Virus record (IMG/VR): IMGVR_UViG_3300013131_000150
Location: 1 to 31,770 of that record
Length of the DNA: 31,770 nt
Source: a virus
Reading direction: 5' to 3' (one strand)
Shown here: positions 4,135-31,770 of the stretch, one piece after another
Position numbering within the stretch: the first letter of the stretch is position 1
Layout: the number at the start of each line of letters is the position of its first letter
The notes under the pieces: generated by a model
Databases searched by the model: none
What the model was told of the DNA's origin: nothing
What the model saw: the letters and a program-made list of their open reading frames with translations, nothing else
Position numbers and translations under genes: made by a program

Positions 4135-5319
4135 ATGAACGATCAACTTTTTACAAAACTCCAAAACTTTAGATCTTCACTGAACACTTCGTTCTTGGAA
4201 CGAGAAGATGTAATTGATGGTCTTTTGGCATCAGTAATCACTAAACAGAATACATTTTTGTTTGGACTCCCTGGTACTGGAAAATCTGAGCTTGTCCGAG
4301 CTGTATCAAATGGTTTTTCAGGGAGCAAATTTTTTGGTTATCTGCTATCCCCGACGACCGATCCATCGGAGTTGTTTGGACCAGTAGCTGTGTCTAAATT
4401 ACTTAAAGACGAATACACTCGAGATACAGAAGGTTATCTCCCAAACTCAAACATTGCATTTCTTGATGAACTTTTTAGAGGCAGCTCTGCAGTACTAAAC
4501 TCTTTGCTTACTATCCTCAACGAGAGAACATTTAATAATGGTAAGCAGGTAATGACCACGCCTATCCAATCAATCGTCGCGGCCACTAATTCTTTTCCGC
4601 AAGAAGAAGCTCTTCAAGCATTCTGTGATCGATTTTTGTTTAGACCAACAATTAATGGACTACAAAAACCAGCATCGCGCAGATTGCTTGACCAGTGGGC
4701 TTTGGGTCTAACTAAACGCCCCGCAGTAAAGTCAGAATTGACTTACGAGGATCTTAATACTTTAAACAAAGATGCAAACGACATAGTTGTTAGTGACGAA
4801 TTCTTGGATAGATTTTCACAAGTTTTTGATCTCCTGTCATCACGAGGAATTACTATTAGTGATCGACGACGAGTTCAGATTCTAAAATTTATGCGTGGGT
4901 GGGCCTTGGTTCAAGGAGATGATACAGTTTATGCTGATCATCTCCATAAACCACTAATCCACATTATTTACAAAAATGTAGACGACATAAATGTGATCAA
5001 AGAAGTATTGGCTCAGGCTATCCCCACGGCGGAAAAAATGGTCGCAGACATCAAAAAAGCTCATAATGGACTTATGACGGAGCATCATACAGTTAACTCT
5101 CAGGAATTTAAAGCAATCGGTGATTTAAACAAACTAGTTAGTAAATTGCGTAAATCACATAACGATTTGTCTACGTTAGATCAAAAACTTAGTTCTATCC
5201 TTGACTCTAATGAGTATCGAATGTCTGCTTCTACGCGGCAAGATGCTACAAAATTGAGTCAAACTTTAGAACAATCAAAACAAATGATTGCAAAATCTAT
5301 TTCGGAGCTTACGTCATGA
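4135..5319 (+). CDS. RavA/MoxR-family AAA+ ATPase
   Basis: A 394-residue AAA+ ATPase. Walker A is GLPGTGKS at residues 44-51, Walker B is IAFLDE at 107-112, sensor 1 is AATN at 149-152 and an arginine-rich RFLFR follows at 166-170. The stretch after Walker B (ELFRGSSAVLNSLLTILNER) is the form found in the RavA branch of MoxR ATPases. Residues 205-290 form the helical lid, and the last 100 residues are coiled coil in place of RavA's usual LARA region. MoxR ATPases remodel protein complexes together with VWA partners; E. coli RavA pairs with ViaA. The partner gene here starts inside the stop codon of this one (ATGA), so the two are translationally coupled. All nucleotide-binding motifs are intact. 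Confidence 0.93.
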   Translation: MNDQLFTKLQNFRSSLNTSFLEREDVIDGLLASVITKQNTFLFGLPGTGKSELVRAVSNGFSGSKFFGYLLSPTTDPSELFGPVAVSKLLKDEYTRDTEGYLPNSNIAFLDELFRGSSAVLNSLLTILNERTFNNGKQVMTTPIQSIVAATNSFPQEEALQAFCDRFLFRPTINGLQKPASRRLLDQWALGLTKRPAVKSELTYEDLNTLNKDANDIVVSDEFLDRFSQVFDLLSSRGITISDRRRVQILKFMRGWALVQGDDTVYADHLHKPLIHIIYKNVDDINVIKEVLAQAIPTAEKMVADIKKAHNGLMTEHHTVNSQEFKAIGDLNKLVSKLRKSHNDLSTLDQKLSSILDSNEYRMSASTRQDATKLSQTLEQSKQMIAKSISELTS

Positions 5320-6863
5320 ATTTCAAAAAAGAACGTGAGTTTATTCGCCTAACTCATAACGAACCTTTAGTTTTGTCTGTCTCAGCTCTGTGCGACTTTT
5401 TGTGGGAAGATTTTGTTCGGGAAACGCAACCTATTGTTAATTATTTAATTGATCATTACAACATCACACAGCTTTCGCGTTTTGGTAAAGAAATTTTTGA
5501 TTATCTTTATAATGGTAGTATAGTAACACCATTAATCAGCGATGACGAAGCAGAGACTTATTTCAGAGCGAAACAAAACAACGAAAATCCTCCATATCCG
5601 AAAGGTTACAAACCAGAAAATGCTTTTTGGCTAAACATGTTTATTAATATTTGCCAAGCTTCGGCATGGCCAAATATTGTAGCAATCTCTTGTGGCGATC
5701 AATTCAACGCTGGAAATAATGCAGTTAATATACTTAATAAAATAAGCGAGCTGATTGAAGAACAAATTCAAACCAACGAAAAACTGGTATTTATGCTTAC
5801 ACAAGGTAGAGATGAAGTCCAGCAACTGCGTGAGAAATTCATTGAAGCTAAAAAACAAGGAAATGATCAACTTGCCGCTGAGTTGAGGCAAAAAGGTAAG
5901 GAACTAGGCAAGCAACTTGAACAACAATTTCAACAAATTGCAGACAAACTTAAACCTGCACTCGAAAAAGCAATCGATAAAGTTAATCAAGAAGCAAACG
6001 AACTTAATGAGACATTAGAAGTATTAGCTGGAGACAATATTGGGACCAAAACAAAGACTAATGATCTCCACGAAAAACTAAATCTTGCTAAAAAACTTAA
6101 AAACAATAAAAATTTAAATAATCTAATAAAAAAAATTGGTGCTCTAAAGCGTGCTTGGGCAAACCGAAAGCGTGCAAAAAAAGCACAAAGTAATTACAGT
6201 GATGTAGTTGCGATAAAATTCTCAGATGATGTAAAAAATGCTTATCCAGTTGAACTTGCTTTGGCTGGAGATAAAGTCGGACAAGCTCTTTTTGCTATCA
6301 AATATGCACAAAAAACACTTCTAACTAAAGATTATGAAGCAAAGACTAATGAATTAAATAAAGGACCGATTGTTATGTACATAGACATTAGCGGATCTAT
6401 GGCAGGACAACCCGAAATTTGGAGCAAAGCAATAACCTATGTTATAGCTCAAGAATGTTTAGAACAGCGCAGAGAGCTGCAAATACATTTATTTGATTCA
6501 GTTATACAAGACAGCGTTATTATCAAACCTGATCAAAATGATAATAAAAGTTTGATTGATTTCGTTATGACGTGGATGACAAAAGGAGGTACTTCTTTTT
6601 CCAGTGTAATAAGTCACGTGCTTAACGAAGTAGAAATTGACCCAAAAGCCGATTTCTTGATGATTACGGACGGAGACTCTAATGTTTCGGATTCGTTTAT
6701 TCGCCGTTTAAACGCATTTAAAGACGAAAAAGAAATTCAATGGAACTCTTTTTGCATAGGACAAAAACCACAAGTTTTGCATAAATTTAGTGATGAAGTA
6801 TTTTTAGTCAACATTCATGACGATACGTCGTCAGTTGATTTGTTTCAAAAATCTATAAGATAA
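5316..6863 (+). CDS. ViaA-like VWA-domain protein
   Basis: A 515-residue protein with a C-terminal von Willebrand A domain. The metal-binding MIDAS site is complete: D357, S359 and S361 in DISGS, T426 in GGTSF, and D452/D454 in TDGDS. The segment just before it (KGPIVMYIDISGSM followed by PEIWSKA) resembles E. coli ViaA, as expected for the partner of a RavA ATPase. Residues 140-290 are a long coiled coil rich in K, E and Q, including a very basic block (RAWANRKRAKKA, about 279-290). The N-terminal 130 residues are helical and unassigned. It overlaps the ATPase gene by four bases. The pair probably acts as a metal-dependent chaperone on a host or virion target. Confidence 0.9.
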   Translation: MNFKKEREFIRLTHNEPLVLSVSALCDFLWEDFVRETQPIVNYLIDHYNITQLSRFGKEIFDYLYNGSIVTPLISDDEAETYFRAKQNNENPPYPKGYKPENAFWLNMFINICQASAWPNIVAISCGDQFNAGNNAVNILNKISELIEEQIQTNEKLVFMLTQGRDEVQQLREKFIEAKKQGNDQLAAELRQKGKELGKQLEQQFQQIADKLKPALEKAIDKVNQEANELNETLEVLAGDNIGTKTKTNDLHEKLNLAKKLKNNKNLNNLIKKIGALKRAWANRKRAKKAQSNYSDVVAIKFSDDVKNAYPVELALAGDKVGQALFAIKYAQKTLLTKDYEAKTNELNKGPIVMYIDISGSMAGQPEIWSKAITYVIAQECLEQRRELQIHLFDSVIQDSVIIKPDQNDNKSLIDFVMTWMTKGGTSFSSVISHVLNEVEIDPKADFLMITDGDSNVSDSFIRRLNAFKDEKEIQWNSFCIGQKPQVLHKFSDEVFLVNIHDDTSSVDLFQKSIR

Positions 6864-24978: not shown

Positions 24979-25620
24979 ATGAGCACATTCAATAAACTTA
25001 AAATCCTCCCAACGACTATTTATGAGTTTCAGTTGCCAGATGACTGCTGGGAAAAATTAATAGAAAAAATCAGAAAAATTAATCCCGAAAGTCTTCATAG
25101 GAGAGACGATAAACCTCATTATGGTTTTTCGGGATCAGGAATAGCTTCTCTCCACCGTGAAAGCGAATGGCACTTTTTAATTGACTACATAGAAAAAAAA
25201 CTTGAGGAAGTAAAAGCAGATATAGGATTCGAAACTATAGAAAAATTAAAAGTATCTTTAATGTGGGCAAATAAAAGTGAAATGTTTGAGTGGCACCACG
25301 CGCATGAACACCCTTGGTCAATAATAAGTGGAATTATATATATTCAAGGATTTGCCGGAAAAACTTGGTTTAGTCGTAAGAGTGAATATGGTCTTGACTT
25401 TCCGGTGCCTTTGCACATATCAAACGCAGAAGAAAAGCAAAATATCTACAAACACGAATTTAAAGAAAGAACAATGGTTTTATTCCCATCAAGCTTAAGG
25501 CACTCAGTAGATGAAAACTCTACGAGCTTACCAAGAATTACAATAAGTTTTAACACTTTTCCTGCTGGTAGTGTTGGTGATGTTGAAAAACTAGCTGGAA
25601 TTTATCTGGATGTATTGTGA
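24979..25620 (+). CDS. 2OG-Fe(II) oxygenase-like protein, 213 aa
   Basis: A cyanophage-type 2-oxoglutarate/Fe(II) oxygenase. Core features are the His cluster WHHAHEHPWSIISGIIYIQG (105-124), the strand MVLFPSSLRHSV (166-177, H175) and RITISFNTF (186-194, with R186 likely to bind 2OG). The order and the 'SGIIYI' and 'FPS.L.H.V....R..ISFN' signatures match the family. The first metal-binding motif is H-rich (H106, H107, H109, H111) rather than plain H-x-D, as in one known subfamily. The substrate is unknown; such genes cluster with tail and glycan genes in cyanophages. It overlaps the next start (TGATG). Confidence 0.82.
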   Translation: MSTFNKLKILPTTIYEFQLPDDCWEKLIEKIRKINPESLHRRDDKPHYGFSGSGIASLHRESEWHFLIDYIEKKLEEVKADIGFETIEKLKVSLMWANKSEMFEWHHAHEHPWSIISGIIYIQGFAGKTWFSRKSEYGLDFPVPLHISNAEEKQNIYKHEFKERTMVLFPSSLRHSVDENSTSLPRITISFNTFPAGSVGDVEKLAGIYLDVL

Positions 25621-27245
25621 TGTGGACACTGGGTATTCATGCGGGTAAACACAACTCAAGCATATGTCTTTTAAAAGACGAACAAATTGAGTTATTTATA
25701 GAGGAAGAAAGGCTGTCAAAAATTAAATACGACAATGAACCCATCAAGTGCTTAGAAGAAGTAAAAAGAGTTACAACATTTGTAGATAATTTAATTATTA
25801 CGCACAGTAATTCTCTTGACTACATAAAACATTTACTTCGCAAAAACGGTGTAACTATTGGAAACAACATAGAAATTAGAAACGATATACATCATTTATG
25901 CCACGCTGCATCTGCATTCTACGGTTCGGGGTTTACAGAAGCTGTTTGCGTTGTATTTGATGGACGGGGATCGGAATTTGAGCTGTCAAATGGCGCTTAT
26001 GGAGCCGAAACAACTTCAATATACAAAGTTTCTTACCCAGCAAACTTTGAACTTGTTTATAAAAAACTTGTAGTTGATCCAGTAAGAGGAGCAAACTTTG
26101 AAGGCGTGACTTTAAACACGCAAGTAAACATAGAAATAAGTTCAAATATTGACATAGGAGGAATGTACCAAGCGGTCACAAATTTACAAGGTTTTAATAA
26201 TCTTGATTGCGGGAAAACTATGGGTTTGGTTGCATACGGAAAAGAAAATTTAAAACTGCCTGACTTGTGCGTAGGGAATAAAAAAGAATCAAACTCAAAC
26301 TTATTCACTAACGATAATAAAATTAACACTAGATTATATCCACAGTTAAAAACTAGCATAAATGATCAGATCCAAGCAGACTTAGCTTTTGCTCTGCAGA
26401 AAGCTACACAAGAGAAAGCATTAAACTATATAAGACAAGCTATAAAGACAACGAAAAGTAAAAACGTAGTACTATCAGGAGGTTTTGCATTAAACATAGT
26501 AGCAAATAAATATTATAAAGATAAACTGCCTAACATAAATTTTTACGTAGATCCTTTAGCTAGTGATGGTGGTCTGTCTCACGGGGCAGCAAAATTGATG
26601 TATTATTCTTTAACTCAAAGTACACAAATAAATAACTTTAAAAGTTTATATTTAGGCCCCAAAATTATCAATAAAAAAATTCAAGAAAACAACGTAGAAA
26701 CACAACAAGTAGCTGAGCTTTTAAATCAAGGGAAAGTAGTTGCTTTATTTCAAGGACGATCGGAAGCAGGTGCAAGAGCACTGGGAAATCGTTCAATACT
26801 ATTTAACCCAACACTCCCAGATGGTAAAAAAATAATAAATACTATAAAAAATAGAGAATGGTTCAGACCTTTTGCGGGAACAATATTAAAAAATTGTGCT
26901 GAACAATGGTTTGATATAAATGAAAATTCTTTTATGACACTTACGGCTAACTGTAAGCAGCCGACCAAAATACCAGCAATAATCCACGAGGACGGAACGT
27001 GTCGAATACAAACACTAACTGAAGAGCAGAATTTGACGTATTACAAAATAATTAAAGAATTTTATGCAATCACAAATGTGCCAATCGTAGGAAATACTTC
27101 TTTTAATATAGATAAACAACCTATTATAGAAACGCTAGAGGATGCTTTAAAAGCATTAGAAAAAACTAAAATAGATTATTTATATTTAGCCGATACAAAA
27201 GATTTAATTAGCCGTAATCCTCAGACAAACTGTACCAACCAGTAA
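25620..27245 (+). CDS. NodU/CmcH-type carbamoyltransferase
   Basis: A 541-residue O-carbamoyltransferase that would transfer a carbamoyl group from carbamoyl phosphate, via carbamoyl-adenylate, to a hydroxyl on a sugar or similar acceptor. Motifs are GIHAGKHNSSICLL (5-18), HHLCHAASAFYGSGF (91-105, with metal-binding histidines), VVFDGRG (111-117), VVLSGGFALNIV, and the C-terminal FQGRSEAGARALGNRSIL with WFRPFA. These are complete for the NodU/TobZ family. The ATG at 25620 overlaps the TGA of the oxygenase gene; a GTG three bases earlier is possible. The last 38 bases overlap the converging oxygenase gene. In cyanophages the enzyme probably modifies host or virion glycans. Confidence 0.92.
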   Translation: MWTLGIHAGKHNSSICLLKDEQIELFIEEERLSKIKYDNEPIKCLEEVKRVTTFVDNLIITHSNSLDYIKHLLRKNGVTIGNNIEIRNDIHHLCHAASAFYGSGFTEAVCVVFDGRGSEFELSNGAYGAETTSIYKVSYPANFELVYKKLVVDPVRGANFEGVTLNTQVNIEISSNIDIGGMYQAVTNLQGFNNLDCGKTMGLVAYGKENLKLPDLCVGNKKESNSNLFTNDNKINTRLYPQLKTSINDQIQADLAFALQKATQEKALNYIRQAIKTTKSKNVVLSGGFALNIVANKYYKDKLPNINFYVDPLASDGGLSHGAAKLMYYSLTQSTQINNFKSLYLGPKIINKKIQENNVETQQVAELLNQGKVVALFQGRSEAGARALGNRSILFNPTLPDGKKIINTIKNREWFRPFAGTILKNCAEQWFDINENSFMTLTANCKQPTKIPAIIHEDGTCRIQTLTEEQNLTYYKIIKEFYAITNVPIVGNTSFNIDKQPIIETLEDALKALEKTKIDYLYLADTKDLISRNPQTNCTNQ

Positions 27246-27807
27246 TTATATACTTTGTCTCGGTCGAAGAAACAATACCGCGATGAGTATGTGTAAAGTC
27301 AGGTGGCCAAATTAAAAGCTTACCTTCTTCTGCTTTTTCAGTATGTTTATAATATTTAAATTCTGTCCCTCCTTGGTCTTCAATATTATTTAAATACAAC
27401 ATAAATACCAATAAACGTCTTGAAGTAGCTACAGACTGTCTTTCTAGGTGAAACTGTTTGAAGCCACCGGTAGGAGGTGTATATTTTTGAATATTAAAAG
27501 GTTCAGTCATACTAAAAGCAATTCCATTAAGCTCTGAAAATTCTTGAATATATTCATTAACGCAAGTCCACAGCCAATCTAAAAATTTGGCTAAACATTT
27601 ATAACCATAAGCTTCGTGCAAGGGAATAAATATCGTTGTGGACTCTTTTATCTCCTTGCGAATATGTCTTGTTCCATCGGGCATATAAATACAACCATCA
27701 TCCTGTAATTCTTTATGCTCCTCAAACCAATTAATTATGTCTTTACAAATATCAGGTTTATTAAAAGTATACCGACGTATAAAAGTCTCAACAGTCATAA
27801 GTTTCAA
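27208..27807 (-). CDS. 2OG-Fe(II) oxygenase (prolyl-4-hydroxylase-like), 199 aa
   Basis: A 199-residue oxygenase. FNIQKYTPPTGGFKQFH leads into H120-L-E122, an H-x-E form of the iron motif. Then FMLYLNNIEDQGGTEFKY, FTHTHRG (171-177, H173 likely the second iron ligand) and K185 in TKYIITGW follow. This order matches the prolyl-4-hydroxylase-like branch, in which Lys replaces the usual Arg for 2OG binding. The start is ATG 27807 or ATG 27798. The gene overlaps the upstream oxygenase by 20 bases and the carbamoyltransferase tail by 38 bases. The substrate is unknown. Confidence 0.82.
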   Translation of the reverse strand: MKLMTVETFIRRYTFNKPDICKDIINWFEEHKELQDDGCIYMPDGTRHIRKEIKESTTIFIPLHEAYGYKCLAKFLDWLWTCVNEYIQEFSELNGIAFSMTEPFNIQKYTPPTGGFKQFHLERQSVATSRRLLVFMLYLNNIEDQGGTEFKYYKHTEKAEEGKLLIWPPDFTHTHRGIVSSTETKYIITGWYSLSEDYG

Positions 27808-28339
27808 ATACGTAAACTACAGATGTTCTAAGAACATCAGTGCATCTTAGAGGAGACTGCCCACAATGGAAAATATTTGAAGGAAAAATAACGGCTCGAT
27901 TGGGCACGTAAGCAATGGTAGAGACTTCGAGACCGCCGGGCTCTATAAAAGCAAAGGGCCCTCCCCAAGAGATATCCCAGGTTTTATTAGTAAATATTAA
28001 AACCGATACAAAATTGGACTTCTTAGAATCTTGATGAAATTGACCTTCTTGACCATAAACTTGACCATTTATATGAATACGATCTAACTTAAAACGACGA
28101 CGTAAATGTTTTTTACTTTTAAGAATTACAGAAGGAGAAAAAGAAAATAAACTAAGAGGTTTGTTTGAGTTTCGAACACCAAAAAATAAAAAAGGATTAC
28201 TAGAGTCACTCCAGTTACAAAGTTCCATCTGCATATAAGAAAATTCGTCCGAAAGAGCTGAAAACTCTGACGGACGAAAAAAATTATCTAAAACTATAGG
28301 TAAAAAATAAAAATTAGGCGCCTCCGCAAATGTAAACAT
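27788..28339 (-). CDS. 2OG-Fe(II) oxygenase, 183 aa
   Basis: A classical 2OG oxygenase: the iron motif is H102-Q-D104 in GQFHQDSKK, the distal His is H158 in FPSNIFHCGQS, and R171 in LRTSVVYVFE fits the 2OG-binding Arg. WGGPFAFIEP and VAYVPNRAVIF-type strands complete the double-stranded beta helix. All three iron ligands are present, so it should be active. It overlaps the collar-domain gene by 26 bases upstream and the second oxygenase by 20 bases downstream, so it is co-expressed with tail genes. A plausible target is a tail protein or a glycan. Confidence 0.85.
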   Translation of the reverse strand: MFTFAEAPNFYFLPIVLDNFFRPSEFSALSDEFSYMQMELCNWSDSSNPFLFFGVRNSNKPLSLFSFSPSVILKSKKHLRRRFKLDRIHINGQVYGQEGQFHQDSKKSNFVSVLIFTNKTWDISWGGPFAFIEPGGLEVSTIAYVPNRAVIFPSNIFHCGQSPLRCTDVLRTSVVYVFETYDC

Positions 28340-28850
28340 AGAATCTGGTGTGTGTCACATCAAAGCTAGCAGCCGTTGTCCCAGAAGCAATAATTTTGGA
28401 AGCAGCCGTATTTACAATATTCATACCGGTCGAGGTCTGAGCAGACTGAGCTGAGTCTGGGCTAGAACCACCATCCTGACCATTACTATCAGCGCACGGA
28501 CCGGGACCACCCTGGCCAGCAAGAGTGTGAATATGAGATTGCATATTCGCAGCCTGAAAAGAGCCAGGATTAGTTCCAGTTGGAATATCACCCGATAAAG
28601 CGACTCGCGAAGACCTATCAATATCAGCATTGCGGCCAAAGTCGTGACCGCGAAAATATAAATTGTTAACATCAGGAAGGTGAATAGCGTTCGCAGTACT
28701 TCCATAACACCCCGAAGGCCAGGCAGCACTAAGACCAGTTGCAGATGAACGAGCAATCGATTGACCGTTCATTAAATAATAAGTAAGACCGTTTAGACCG
28801 ACGAACGATGTGCCGCGATAAACAGCGGAATGAATAATATGACTGATCAT
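28314..28850 (-). CDS. tail collar-like fibre protein, 178 aa
   Basis: Resembles the phage tail collar/short tail fibre fold. An N-terminal unit with NGQSIARSSATGLSAAWPSG and HLPDVNNLYFRGHDFGRNAD matches the collar motif ('N.....R......LF.........GS......LPD..G.FLRG'). A glycine/serine-rich middle and a C-terminus with THTRFYVYICGGA follow. Repeated HIH/HT residues (near 108) could bind metal, as in T4 gp12-type tips. It is likely an adhesin or tip protein that contacts the host surface. Confidence 0.8.
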   Translation of the reverse strand: MISHIIHSAVYRGTSFVGLNGLTYYLMNGQSIARSSATGLSAAWPSGCYGSTANAIHLPDVNNLYFRGHDFGRNADIDRSSRVALSGDIPTGTNPGSFQAANMQSHIHTLAGQGGPGPCADSNGQDGGSSPDSAQSAQTSTGMNIVNTAASKIIASGTTAASFDVTHTRFYVYICGGA

Positions 28851-28852
28851 AA

Positions 28853-29902
28853 TTAAATAGGAAGTACGACCACGGCTAAATATACATCTATATTAGCTGG
28901 TCTACTTTCGTTACCTGTGCCGATATTAGACGTAGAAGAAACAGGGGTAGTCAATCCGTTTGTCGGAGCAGTGTAGTCACACCGTCTATTTCCTCCAGCT
29001 AGTACGTTTGAGCTAACTGTGTGATTGTGAGATATAAAGTTATCAGTAGCCCATCCACTCACGCCGGCATAGCCAGATGGTTGAAGCGTGGTTCGGCCCA
29101 CGGGGGCGCGTAAGAAGATGCCTCGATAATCGGGTAAGTTAAATGTAGTGCTACCATCACCCGAACCGTATAAGTTACCAATACGTGAATAAAGTGTGGC
29201 GTAAGTGTTTCGACTAATGGCCTGGCCACTAGCGATCATTACATTCGTAGCAATAACAAGAGAAATGTTGGCTGCGTCATTAGGAGTTAAAAATGCCATG
29301 GCTAAGCCAACAGGCAAATTTTCGGAAATACTAGCAACTAAGGGGATAATTTCATAATGTCTACCATGATTATCATTACCTCCTGCATTATTGGTTGTAA
29401 AAGTGGGGTTACTCATATCAGTAACACCGCCATTACCATTACTGGCTTGGGGAGTCTGATAAGTCCGTAAGGGAAAAATAGTGTGAGTATGAGTGGGAAG
29501 GACACCTACGCCAGAGGGAGTCGTTCCAGATACAGTAGCAGCCTTAAAATAACCGTAAATAGGTGTGGTGTTAGGTAATGTAAAAGTAGTAGAACCATTT
29601 CCACTACCATAGGTATTACCTATACCACTATATAAAGCTCCGAAAACAGTACGGCTAGCAGTAGAACCATCACAAGGGCAATATTTAACCCCACTAATAG
29701 CAGTAACAACGCCACTAGAGATAGCAAAGACAAAATCACCGGCAGTAACCCAGGGATTTGCATAAGACGGGGCAACAGGCCAGGCATCAATTAATTTTTG
29801 TTGATAAACCTCAGAAGGTGCCACATAAGAACCATCAGTATCTGTGACACTAGGTAAAGTAGTTTTACCCGTATAATTAGCTAATTTTTTATTTGTTGTC
29901 AT
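28853..29902 (-). CDS. tail fibre protein with two collar domains, 349 aa
   Basis: Two copies of the tail collar motif: DGSTASRTVFGALYSGIGNT with GSGNGSTTFTLPN (about 78-110), and SGQAISRNTYATLYSRIGNL with GSGDGSTTFNLPDYRGIF (about 228-266). The two align along their length, an internal duplication. Each is followed by a HNH/THTH-type His cluster (about 137-141 and 294-297), the position where T4 gp12-like fibres bind metal. The gene ends three bases before the next ATG and starts with a four-base ATGA overlap to the upstream gene. It is likely a trimeric host-binding fibre. Confidence 0.87.
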   Translation of the reverse strand: MTTNKKLANYTGKTTLPSVTDTDGSYVAPSEVYQQKLIDAWPVAPSYANPWVTAGDFVFAISSGVVTAISGVKYCPCDGSTASRTVFGALYSGIGNTYGSGNGSTTFTLPNTTPIYGYFKAATVSGTTPSGVGVLPTHTHTIFPLRTYQTPQASNGNGGVTDMSNPTFTTNNAGGNDNHGRHYEIIPLVASISENLPVGLAMAFLTPNDAANISLVIATNVMIASGQAISRNTYATLYSRIGNLYGSGDGSTTFNLPDYRGIFLRAPVGRTTLQPSGYAGVSGWATDNFISHNHTVSSNVLAGGNRRCDYTAPTNGLTTPVSSTSNIGTGNESRPANIDVYLAVVVLPI

Positions 29903-30558
29903 GAGAGTGAATACTCGAAATAAAAACTTGTTTCGGAATCTAAAGGAGTTGAACCTTTAACCCAGTCACTAGGTATTGTAAAGTACAGACGCACGTTTTC
30001 GGGAACGTGAAAAATAAAACCAAAAGTTTCATACTGAGCCTTCCAGCGATCAAAATTAGCATTAATAAAAGATTTAGCTAGCGCTTCATCATAAATTTGT
30101 TTATTTGGAGGTACGGAAACAGCTGAAGGAATATCGTCATAAGTTAATAAGGTATCTTCAGGTTGTTTCAATAAATAAAGTATTTTTGCTGTATAACTGG
30201 CCACGGCTTCTTTATACACTGAGTCAAAAGCGCCTAAATTTATATCAGGCACGGATTTAAGTAATTGTGTTAAAATAGCTCGGACTTCGCGATTAACTTT
30301 ATAGCCATCTGTAATTTCTCGCTCTGTCTTTTTTCGCGATTTAAATGTAAATGAATCAAAATCCCAGTAAACTACATAATCTGAGGTAACTTCAGGATAC
30401 TCAAAAGGTCCAGAATACCCAGCAAGATAAATATCATCTAACAAACATTTTTTGCAGTACCTAGTTTCACCTGAAGGAAGGCGAAACCTAACAGGTAATT
30501 TTTCAGGTATACCCCCCTCAAAGCTGAAATAGCTTTGAGAAAAATCAGAAGTTTCCAT
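29899..30558 (-). CDS. virion-associated protein, 219 aa
   Basis: Located between a small beta protein and the collar fibre, so probably a tail/baseplate or fibre-attachment protein. It contains CKKCLLDD (about 36-43), a short Cys pair, and a tyrosine-rich region. Later segments are helical (YKEAVASYTAKILYLLKQ). The C-terminus is beta-rich and ends in ETSFYFEYSLS. The start is ambiguous: GTG at 30564 would give a GTGA overlap with the upstream stop, whereas ATG at 30558 is the conventional codon. The family is unknown. Confidence 0.72.
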   Translation of the reverse strand: METSDFSQSYFSFEGGIPEKLPVRFRLPSGETRYCKKCLLDDIYLAGYSGPFEYPEVTSDYVVYWDFDSFTFKSRKKTEREITDGYKVNREVRAILTQLLKSVPDINLGAFDSVYKEAVASYTAKILYLLKQPEDTLLTYDDIPSAVSVPPNKQIYDEALAKSFINANFDRWKAQYETFGFIFHVPENVRLYFTIPSDWVKGSTPLDSETSFYFEYSLS

Positions 30559-30560
30559 GG

Positions 30561-30878
30561 TCACACCACGACATAGCTAATAGCCGCATCAAGGTCACCA
30601 GAATTACTAGCAGACATCCTTAAACTACGTCCACTAGGAAGAATTAATTTGTTAGCAATAAGGTCAACGTTCGCATCAGCGGGAACGGCAATTGTATGAG
30701 CAACGTAAGAAACAACAGTAGACCCGTTATTTATAGAGCATGTCGCATCACAAGCAAGAGCACCGTCAGTATTACTAACAAGAATACTCAAAACAATAGT
30801 AGAGTCCGAGGTCGAAGTAACAACAGCAACCGGACTCGTATCTACGTTTCGCTGAGTCCCGAGGTAAAAAGTAGCCAC
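30561..30878 (-). CDS. small beta-sandwich virion protein, 105 aa
   Basis: A short all-beta protein of the type seen in tail/decoration proteins: TSPVAVVTSTSDSTIVLSIL, NNGSTVVSYVAHTI and the ending LDAAISYVVV. Two cysteines lie close together (CDATC). The gene is about 50 bases downstream of the repetitive fibre gene and overlaps the next one by the GTGA/TGA arrangement. I place it in the small Ig-like/beta-sandwich virion class, without a specific family. Confidence 0.7.
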   Translation of the reverse strand: MATFYLGTQRNVDTSPVAVVTSTSDSTIVLSILVSNTDGALACDATCSINNGSTVVSYVAHTIAVPADANVDLIANKLILPSGRSLRMSASNSGDLDAAISYVVV

Positions 30879-30925: not shown

Positions 30926-31770
30926 TTAACTCAGGGCCATAATCAAACCAATTAAAGCACCCTCATTAACAGGAAGATTATTCGCAATTACAAAAAGTGC
31001 GGCGTTGCCTGAAGCCAAAGCTTTAACACTATCGGCCAAAGCATTGTTACCAGAAACAGTAGCGTATAAACCAGAGGAAATTGCTCTATTAGAGTTCTGC
31101 TGAGAACTTAAAGTTGCTGAAATACTAGAATTACCTGACGATAGAGCCGTTACAGCAGCAAATAAAGCGGAGTTACCAGAACTTAAAGCTGTAGAAGTGA
31201 CCGAAAGACTTTCATTGCCAGAAGCTTGCGCAACAGCAACCAGAGAAAGCGCTGAGTTACCAGACGATAACGCTGTTAAGCCAACATTAATTGCCGCATT
31301 TCCTGATGCTACAGCAGGGACAGCTGCACTCAAAGCAGCATTACCTGACGCTTGAGCAACTGCAGAAGGTGCAAAACAAGCTTGACCCGATGCAATAGCA
31401 GTCGGAGCAATAACTATTGCAGCACTACCAGAAGCAATTGCTCGGTTACTGGTTAAAATAGCATCGCGGCATAAAACTTGAACAAATTGATTCCCTAAAA
31501 CAGCATCTTCGCAATCCTGAAGAGCGTTTACAGAATTTGTTAGGGCTGCGTTACCAGAAGCAAGAGCGGTGCTGGCAAGAGCAACAGCGGCAGTGCCAGA
31601 GGCAAACGCTATGTTCGCAGCGGTAACAGCAGCGGTTCCAGAAGCAAATGCTGTATTAGCATCTGCAAGCGCTGCGTTACCCGACGCAAGGGCTAACGCA
31701 GAAGATGTAGTTGCTGCTGAACCAGAAGCGATAGAAGAAACACTTATCTGCTGAGCTTGATAACCTGAAG
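30926..31770 (-). CDS. repetitive SGN-rich fibre protein (5' end beyond window)
   Basis: The frame is open without a stop from 30926 to the window edge, at least 281 codons; internal TTG codons are not the start. Most of the visible protein is a tandem array of roughly 14-16-residue units built on ASGNAAL, SSGNSAL, ASGTAAV or near copies (for example at about 31316, 31274, 31178 and 31568). The regular Ala/Ser/Gly/Asn pattern with hydrophobic spacing suggests an extended trimeric coiled or beta-helical fibre shaft. A short break in the pattern (LQDCEDAVLGNQFVQVLCRD) carries a Cys pair, and the last 20 residues (AGLIMALS-like end) form a non-repeat cap. The neighbours are tail proteins, so it is very likely a tail fibre or spike shaft. 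Confidence 0.8.
   Translation of the reverse strand, partial: SGYQAQQISVSSIASGSAATTSSALALASGNAALADANTAFASGTAAVTAANIAFASGTAAVALASTALASGNAALTNSVNALQDCEDAVLGNQFVQVLCRDAILTSNRAIASGSAAIVIAPTAIASGQACFAPSAVAQASGNAALSAAVPAVASGNAAINVGLTALSSGNSALSLVAVAQASGNESLSVTSTALSSGNSALFAAVTALSSGNSSISATLSSQQNSNRAISSGLYATVSGNNALADSVKALASGNAALFVIANNLPVNEGALIGLIMALS

Follow-up and report, generated by a model that had tools for sequence, protein, structure and literature searches.

Organization of the locus

The present analysis deals with a virus record of 31,770 bases (IMG/VR IMGVR_UViG_3300013131_000150; this whole stretch of DNA is called the window), in which a gene for a two-domain O-carbamoyltransferase (CT) and genes for three 2-oxoglutarate (2OG)-Fe(II) oxygenase-like proteins, here named OxyA, OxyB and OxyC, lie beside and within a tail-fibre operon. 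Together they form a real and conserved module, which is part of an arrangement recurring at host-recognition genes. The features are the following (aa, amino acids; ORF, open reading frame):

24979..25620, plus strand: OxyC, 213 aa, 2OG-Fe(II) oxygenase-like (PF13759 / TIGR02466), predicted metal site H109-x-H111...H175 without carboxylate
25617..27245, plus strand: CT, 542 aa, two-domain O-carbamoyltransferase (Carbam_trans_N and C), phrog_1601
27208..27245, no strand assigned: convergent 3'-end overlap of CT and OxyB, 38 nt
27208..27807, minus strand: OxyB, 199 aa, 2OG-Fe(II) oxygenase-like (PF13640 / phrog_61), H120-L-E122...H175
27788..28339, minus strand: OxyA, 183 aa, 2OG-Fe(II) oxygenase-like (PF13640 / phrog_274), H102-x-D104...H158, R171
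28314..28850, minus strand: collar2, fibre-tip-like protein with weak tail PHROG matches
28853..29902, minus strand: collar1, two Phage Tail Collar (PF07484) matches
29899..30564, minus strand: fibre-operon ORF, no family, kept in the relative
30561..30878, minus strand: small fibre-operon ORF, no Pfam family, kept in the relative
30926..31768, minus strand: repeat protein with ASGNAAL-like repeats, shared with the relative, truncated at its start by the window end

On the minus strand the fibre operon runs from the repeat protein through the two ORFs without family, collar1 and collar2 to OxyA and OxyB, the OxyA start lying 26 nt within the 3' end of collar2 and the OxyB start 20 nt within OxyA. 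On the plus strand OxyC is followed by CT with a 4-nt overlap, and CT and OxyB meet tail-to-tail, sharing 38 nt. A sequence-only reading of this DNA had described two 2OG oxygenases in the fibre operon and a third, coupled to CT on the opposite strand and meeting them tail-to-tail, with differing iron motifs; ORFs, Pfam matches and the overlap bear this out (OxyC H-x-H, OxyB H-x-E, OxyA H-x-D). The range it gave, 24979-28339, takes in the four enzymes but falls short of the module, which extends over collar2 and collar1 to the fibre genes up to the window end. From 25 to 28 kb the DNA is AT-richer, with a GC content of 0.33-0.36 against 0.40-0.41 in the flanking kilobases.

Profile matches were judged by the curated Pfam cut-offs (PF02543 and PF07484, 24 bits; PF16861, PF13640 and PF13759, 27 bits). 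Collar1 matched PF07484 clearly (E 3e-27, 94.8 bits); no Pfam match was found for collar2 in the window, and its counterpart in the relative described below reaches 18.5 bits with the Collar model, short of the cut-off. PF21722 (Gly_rich_2) was matched neither in the window record nor in G001, the adhesins of window and relative being of the collar type and not Gly-rich. The repeat protein at 30926-31768 is probably the fibre shaft, as its position suggests. Among the scanned module proteins no sugar gene was detected. PADLOC revealed no defence system at the locus, OxyA and OxyB matching just a generic 2OG model of the Cas-associated kind.

Relatives of the module and phage lineage

The whole module recurs syntenically on two IMG/VR contigs of 69.9 and 85.3 kb, which have identical ORFs at the locus and are treated as one relative. 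All genes, strands and overlaps are kept at identities of 65% (CT), 55% (OxyA), 55% (OxyB), 47% (OxyC) and 56% (collar1), and because of this preservation the layout is regarded as more than chance. Most of the window aligns collinearly with the region from about 31 to 68 kb on the 85.3-kb contig, which has the portal (47.5% over 78%), terminase, major head protein, primase and others in common with S-EIV1 (KJ410740), a few of the matches listed being shadow ORFs. S-EIV1 itself gave no match to any module protein (CT, oxygenases, collar) at E 0.01; since the module is missing there and syntenic in the relative, it is interpreted as an accessory cassette in an S-EIV1-like lineage. We infer that the window phage belongs to this S-EIV1-like freshwater cyanophage lineage, its host being likewise a presumption. 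Near the contig ends the 85-kb relative also encodes glycosyltransferase-like (GT1, GT2) and Methyltransf_24 genes (L026:3-2125, L029:18916-19644, L030:827-1600).

The three oxygenases

OxyC (PF13759, E 9e-17, 61.7 bits) and OxyB (PF13640, E 2e-8, 35.4 bits) exceed their family cut-offs, and OxyA (PF13640, E 5e-6, 27.8 bits) lies barely above it. The canonical 2-His-1-carboxylate site is not found in OxyC, where a His occupies the HxD position in 24/24 aligned proteins; because all three His (H109, H111, H175) are invariant in these 24, the His-rich site with its missing carboxylate is a trait of the family. OxyB has the motif H-x-E...H, and the H-x-D...H motif of OxyA is kept in 5/5 aligned sequences, which make up its entire alignment. 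The FlmC oxygenase model NF052475 was matched by OxyA with 44 bits against a cut-off of 240, and nothing on FlmC as an oxygenase was found in the open-licence literature.

Structures predicted with AlphaFold2 for OxyA and OxyC (mean pLDDT, predicted local distance difference test, 78 each) match the oxygenase fold, the OxyA model being built on an alignment of just five sequences. That of OxyC is closest to 3bvc and 2rg4, uncharacterised proteins which are also its relatives by sequence in the Protein Data Bank (PDB), next to two weak matches; for OxyA and OxyB the PDB gave no meaningful sequence relative (one chance match for OxyA, E 0.63). Among the matches listed to solved structures, the OxyA model is closest to human PHD2, an enzyme that hydroxylates proline within protein. 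Viral contigs scanned with the single OxyA or collar1 sequence yielded no relative, and a three-sequence OxyA alignment yielded five loci, two of them the relative already known.

The carbamoyltransferase

CT matches both domains of its family (PF16861, E 6e-56, 189 bits; PF02543, E 6e-23, 82.2 bits) and aligns to TobZ, GdmN, decarbamoylnovobiocin CT and 7xb6 in the PDB. H12, H92, H96, D115, D317, R387 and R417 are invariant among 11 phage CTs, and work on TobZ points to a catalytic role of these conserved His, Asp and Arg residues. With the TobZ/GdmN/novobiocin-type enzymes CT has the two-domain family and the catalytic regions in common; these act, however, on antibiotics, and the CTs of window and relative differ by GARALG instead of GPRALG and by DKQP where most have GEP/AEP. 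The label 'NodU-type' in the sequence-only reading holds at the superfamily level only: CT reaches 116 bits with the NodU equivalog NF041651, whose cut-off is 1000 bits. A scan of genome contigs gave a single bacterial CT (32%).

A general metabolic role, in which the oxygenases shift 2-oxoglutarate pools or repair DNA and CT aids pyrimidine synthesis, has been put forward in the literature (PMC3037559, PMC9146016, PMC10436341), in two of which a cyanophage carbamoyltransferase is called pyrimidine-related. By its domains, however, CT is of the O-carbamoyltransferase and not of the aspartate carbamoyltransferase type, as is the single PF16861 match of S-MS29, and location and multiplicity of the genes are left unexplained, so that we regard such a role as very improbable.

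Hypermodification of DNA, by which an oxygenase would make a hydroxymethyl base and CT carbamoylate it, has a precedent in a carbamoyltransferase of the same superfamily from phage-like DNA, which follows the same hydroxyl-capping logic and carbamoylates 5-hydroxymethylcytosine in vitro (MetaGPA, PMC8670742, as far as accessible). ThyX-type synthase genes are present in window and relative, and CT lies beside thyX in S-RIM44 and S-SCSM1. Yet the thymidylate synthase PF00303, partner in that system, was absent from 21/21 records searched, including the window and both relative contigs, which are possibly incomplete, and Tet_JBP (PF12851) was above cut-off in 0/21. The module oxygenases belong to PF13640/PF13759, and CT is located at fibre genes, not replication genes; this explanation is disfavoured and even less probable than the metabolic one. 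In S-RIM44 (L006:8010-9631) and S-SCSM1 (L013:3190-6772) the CTs beside thyX are split, the ORF of the C-terminal domain preceding that of the N-terminal domain.

Carbamoyltransferase loci and their neighbourhoods

A profile scan of viral contigs with a four-CT alignment provided 80 loci, the best 80 of 88, two of them being the relative. After removal of L034 as a duplicate 79 were examined, 48 of which have at least 3 kb on each side of CT. Among these 48, which are not dereplicated and stem from seeds that are partly known phages with such loci, matches being counted at E 1e-5, an oxygenase was found within 3 kb of CT in 43, a fibre or adhesin gene in 37 and both in 36; within 5 kb the numbers rise to 44, 40 and 39. 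No fibre gene was detected within 5 kb of CT in L042, L044, L053, L069, L076, L096, L107 and L112.

In a CT tree of 78 rows, calculated with a quick method and excluding near-duplicates and partial rows below 440 aa, window and relative were grouped with a support of 100 and joined less firmly (91) by L041, L044, L046 and L053. In L044 (1868-10650) and L053 (568-8846) several oxygenases accompany CT, L044 also having a methyltransferase, and no fibre gene was detected within 5 kb; an amidinotransferase at L044:9028-10146 was dropped for want of Pfam support. The two loci would suit a small-molecule pathway, in which a diffusible metabolite produced during infection would be modified, and a metabolite has been suggested for S-SSM6a in the accessible text of PMC7824862. 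However, no core biosynthetic enzyme was seen in the module and the adhesin linkage is left unexplained, and we consider this pathway improbable.

The type of neighbourhood is clustered on the CT tree, with 13 changes compared with 42.5 in shuffles. A link between enzyme type and fibre type, proposed as a check in the sequence-only reading, is thereby found in a broad sense, but shared descent can by itself suffice for the pattern. The downstream neighbour of CT is convergent and overlapping in 21 of 26 loci with Gly-rich context, in both collar loci and in none of the 22 heptose-context loci with a call. L049 repeats the full order of the window (oxygenase and CT facing an oxygenase and an adhesin gene on the opposite strand), L054 has CT facing oxygenase and adhesin, and relatives of OxyA stand directly 3' of CT in L048 and L062. 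Varied oxygenases and adhesins thus fill one position at the end of the fibre operon, a pattern as expected of exchangeable parts.

A sister CT group stands amid ADP-heptose genes and a GT9-like gene. The gene preceding CT in P-SSM2/S-CAM1-type loci (L016:3853-4965, L014:3832-4971) is GT9-like, with 22 bits, at cut-off, in S-CAM1 and below cut-off in P-SSM2; ADP-heptose synthesis and a heptosyltransferase may thus be encoded at these fibre loci. An assignment of the CT-adjacent gene in P-SSM2 and S-CAM1 as fibre was dropped, as Pfam gives the GT9-like match. All or part of this set of genes adjoins clade CTs in P-SSM2, S-CAM1, S-CAM3, S-SSM7 and Sf-FS3, and bears on glycan modification: the sugars carbamoylated by CT and oxidised by the oxygenases would belong either to the host envelope, as a superinfection block or release aid, or to a fibre-attached glycan. 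The CT superfamily has a precedent on sugar-bearing molecules (TobZ), glycosyltransferase-like and O-methyltransferase-like genes are encoded in the 85-kb relative, and the related S-SSM6a cluster was interpreted as capsule decoration or metabolite by Iyer et al. (2021; PMC7824862), adhesins going unmentioned in the accessible text of that paper. The lack of a detected sugar gene among the scanned module proteins speaks against it, as does the tight linkage, which is with the adhesin genes and not with the sugar genes of the relative; halogenases, too, suit amino acids better than sugars. We regard glycan modification as a close rival and a serious possibility.

Adhesin linkage in complete cyanophage genomes

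In S-CAM8 the product of the gene abutting CT is a Gly-rich (PF21722) protein, and a Gly-rich domain terminating a cyanophage fibre is reported to bind the receptor (Pam3 gp24; PMC9608196). A genome-wide search placed a CT of the clade within 5.1 kb of Gly_rich_2 in nine genomes (S-CAM8, S-MS29, S-SSM5, P-RSM4, Sf-FS3, S-SSM7, S-CAM1, S-CAM3 and P-SSM2), some matches beyond the S-CAM8 group being weak and that of P-SSM2 below cut-off. In the first four, the adhesin gene overlaps the CT gene and is the sole Gly_rich_2 copy of the genome; S-SCSM2R, the tenth genome of the CT clade, has no Gly_rich_2 domain in its genome. Thirteen further CT places in genomes with Gly_rich_2 lie at least 33 kb away, including second copies and the split CTs of S-RIM44 and S-SCSM1. 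Split CTs and second copies are absent from the CT tree, and identity (S-RIM44 38.9%) makes it possible that the split ones are clade members. For proximity of CT and Gly-rich genes a combined p of 7e-8 was obtained, which is only a guide, because related genomes were counted as independent and the clade was chosen afterwards. This link of the CT clade to host-recognition genes is new here and was not found in the open-licence literature.

The tail-fibre locus of S-CAM8, S-MS29, S-SSM5 and P-RSM4 (Kyanoviridae) resembles the window in that an opposite-strand CT of the clade (42-46% identical to the window CT) convergently overlaps the last gene of the fibre run and several 2OG oxygenases adjoin; it differs in having a Gly-rich PF21722 adhesin instead of a collar protein and no OxyC-CT operon, and in belonging to another phage group. 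Clusters of the S-SSM6a/S-SSM7 type likewise combine a CT of the clade with 2OG oxygenases, but possess an extra halogenase, kinase/nucleotidyltransferase-like genes and more CTs (PMC7824862, accessible text); in S-SSM7 Gly-rich genes lie within 5 kb upstream.

In a rotation test on 14 complete genomes, 37 oxygenases were found within 8 kb of Gly_rich_2 genes (15.9 expected, p 0.0008) and 19 within 5 kb (10.2 expected, p 0.038). This enrichment was also seen where CT lies elsewhere (Bellamy, HTVC008M, S-SZBM1), and in S-CAM1, S-CAM3, P-SSM2 and S-SCSM1 no oxygenases occurred near Gly_rich_2 genes within these distances. Around all 27 CT places in 19 records just 33 oxygenases were counted within 5 kb (17.6 expected); around CT in the S-CAM8 group the count within this distance is 3-4 (about 0.45 expected).

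In S-RIM44 and S-SZBM1, FAD tryptophan halogenase genes are 1.5-2.9 kb away from Gly-rich adhesins; others are found among the Gly-rich adhesin genes of L049 and next to those of the L098 record, but in S-MS29, S-SSM5, S-SCSM1 and P-SSM2 they do not adjoin such genes. Over 11 places the test of this association gave a Fisher p of 0.014, seven of the 11 lying at least 9 kb from a Gly-rich gene. Between the Gly-rich adhesin genes of L049 (12216-14221), the gene for an OxyB-like oxygenase and that for a tryptophan halogenase share 4 nt.

Proposed tailoring of the adhesin

Our tentatively favoured reading is that an exchangeable cassette covalently, i.e. post-translationally, tailors the receptor-binding tip or adhesin of the phage. 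OxyA and OxyB would probably share a late transcript with the collar proteins, as the gene overlaps suggest, and would hydroxylate adhesin side chains, with protein as the presumed substrate. OxyC and CT would act as a second, convergent two-gene unit, OxyC supplying a hydroxyl and CT subsequently capping it with carbamoyl from carbamoyl phosphate and ATP. The contact surface of the adhesin would then differ from the encoded sequence, and receptor specificity or stability may be altered.

The observations beneath it are gene content, intact family motifs, synteny, overlaps and the repeated occurrence of clade CTs and of oxygenases next to adhesin genes. Counted in its favour are the nine genomes with a clade CT within 5.1 kb of a Gly-rich adhesin, the enrichment of oxygenases near Gly_rich_2 genes, the halogenase genes near Gly-rich adhesins, whose family name refers to an amino-acid side chain, the predicted fold of OxyA with PHD2, a protein proline hydroxylase, as its nearest match, and the layouts repeated in L049 and L054 together with the OxyA relatives 3' of CT in L048 and L062.

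Several points weigh against adhesin tailoring. PHD2 is heavily over-represented in the PDB, and a fold has no power to fix a substrate; the PDB-characterised relatives of CT (TobZ, GdmN, decarbamoylnovobiocin CT) act on small molecules, and we know of no CT relative acting on protein. The clustering of oxygenases at CT is strong in the S-CAM8 group only, and L044 and L053, in the closest CT sister group of the window, are without a detected fibre gene within 5 kb. The sister CT group with ADP-heptose genes and a GT9-like gene fits sugars, as do the glycosyltransferase-like and O-methyltransferase-like genes that the 85-kb relative carries outside the locus. One phage-like CT acts on 5-hydroxymethylcytosine (PMC8670742, accessible text). 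Finally, the adhesin linkage may reflect only moron genes inserting at late-operon ends. The sequence-only reading had proposed modification of fibres or of surface sugars, in which different oxygenases would act on different targets; it is partly supported, as comparison of genomes bears out the link to host-recognition genes, with clade CTs at Gly-rich adhesins and oxygenases enriched there, and fibre and sugar are both serious candidates.

A more far-reaching form of adhesin tailoring, which we consider rather unlikely, is that several cyanophage lineages carry islands of swappable 2OG oxygenases, an O-carbamoyltransferase and sometimes a flavin halogenase, which would put new chemistry directly onto the receptor-binding protein, an O-carbamoylated hydroxy-amino acid among it; host recognition would then depend in part on post-translational chemistry and not solely on adhesin sequence. 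2OG oxygenases rank among the most multiplied cyanophage genes, and to our knowledge no substrates are known for them, for phage carbamoyltransferases or for halogenases. The physical linkage, being reproducible, singles out particular adhesins as candidate substrates; should they indeed be tailored, the host range of phages would include a chemical layer overlooked by prediction from sequence.

Elsewhere in the window, at 4135-6863, inspection by eye with no search made suggests an AAA+ ATPase gene and, behind it, a gene whose product bears a VWA-like motif for a metal site.

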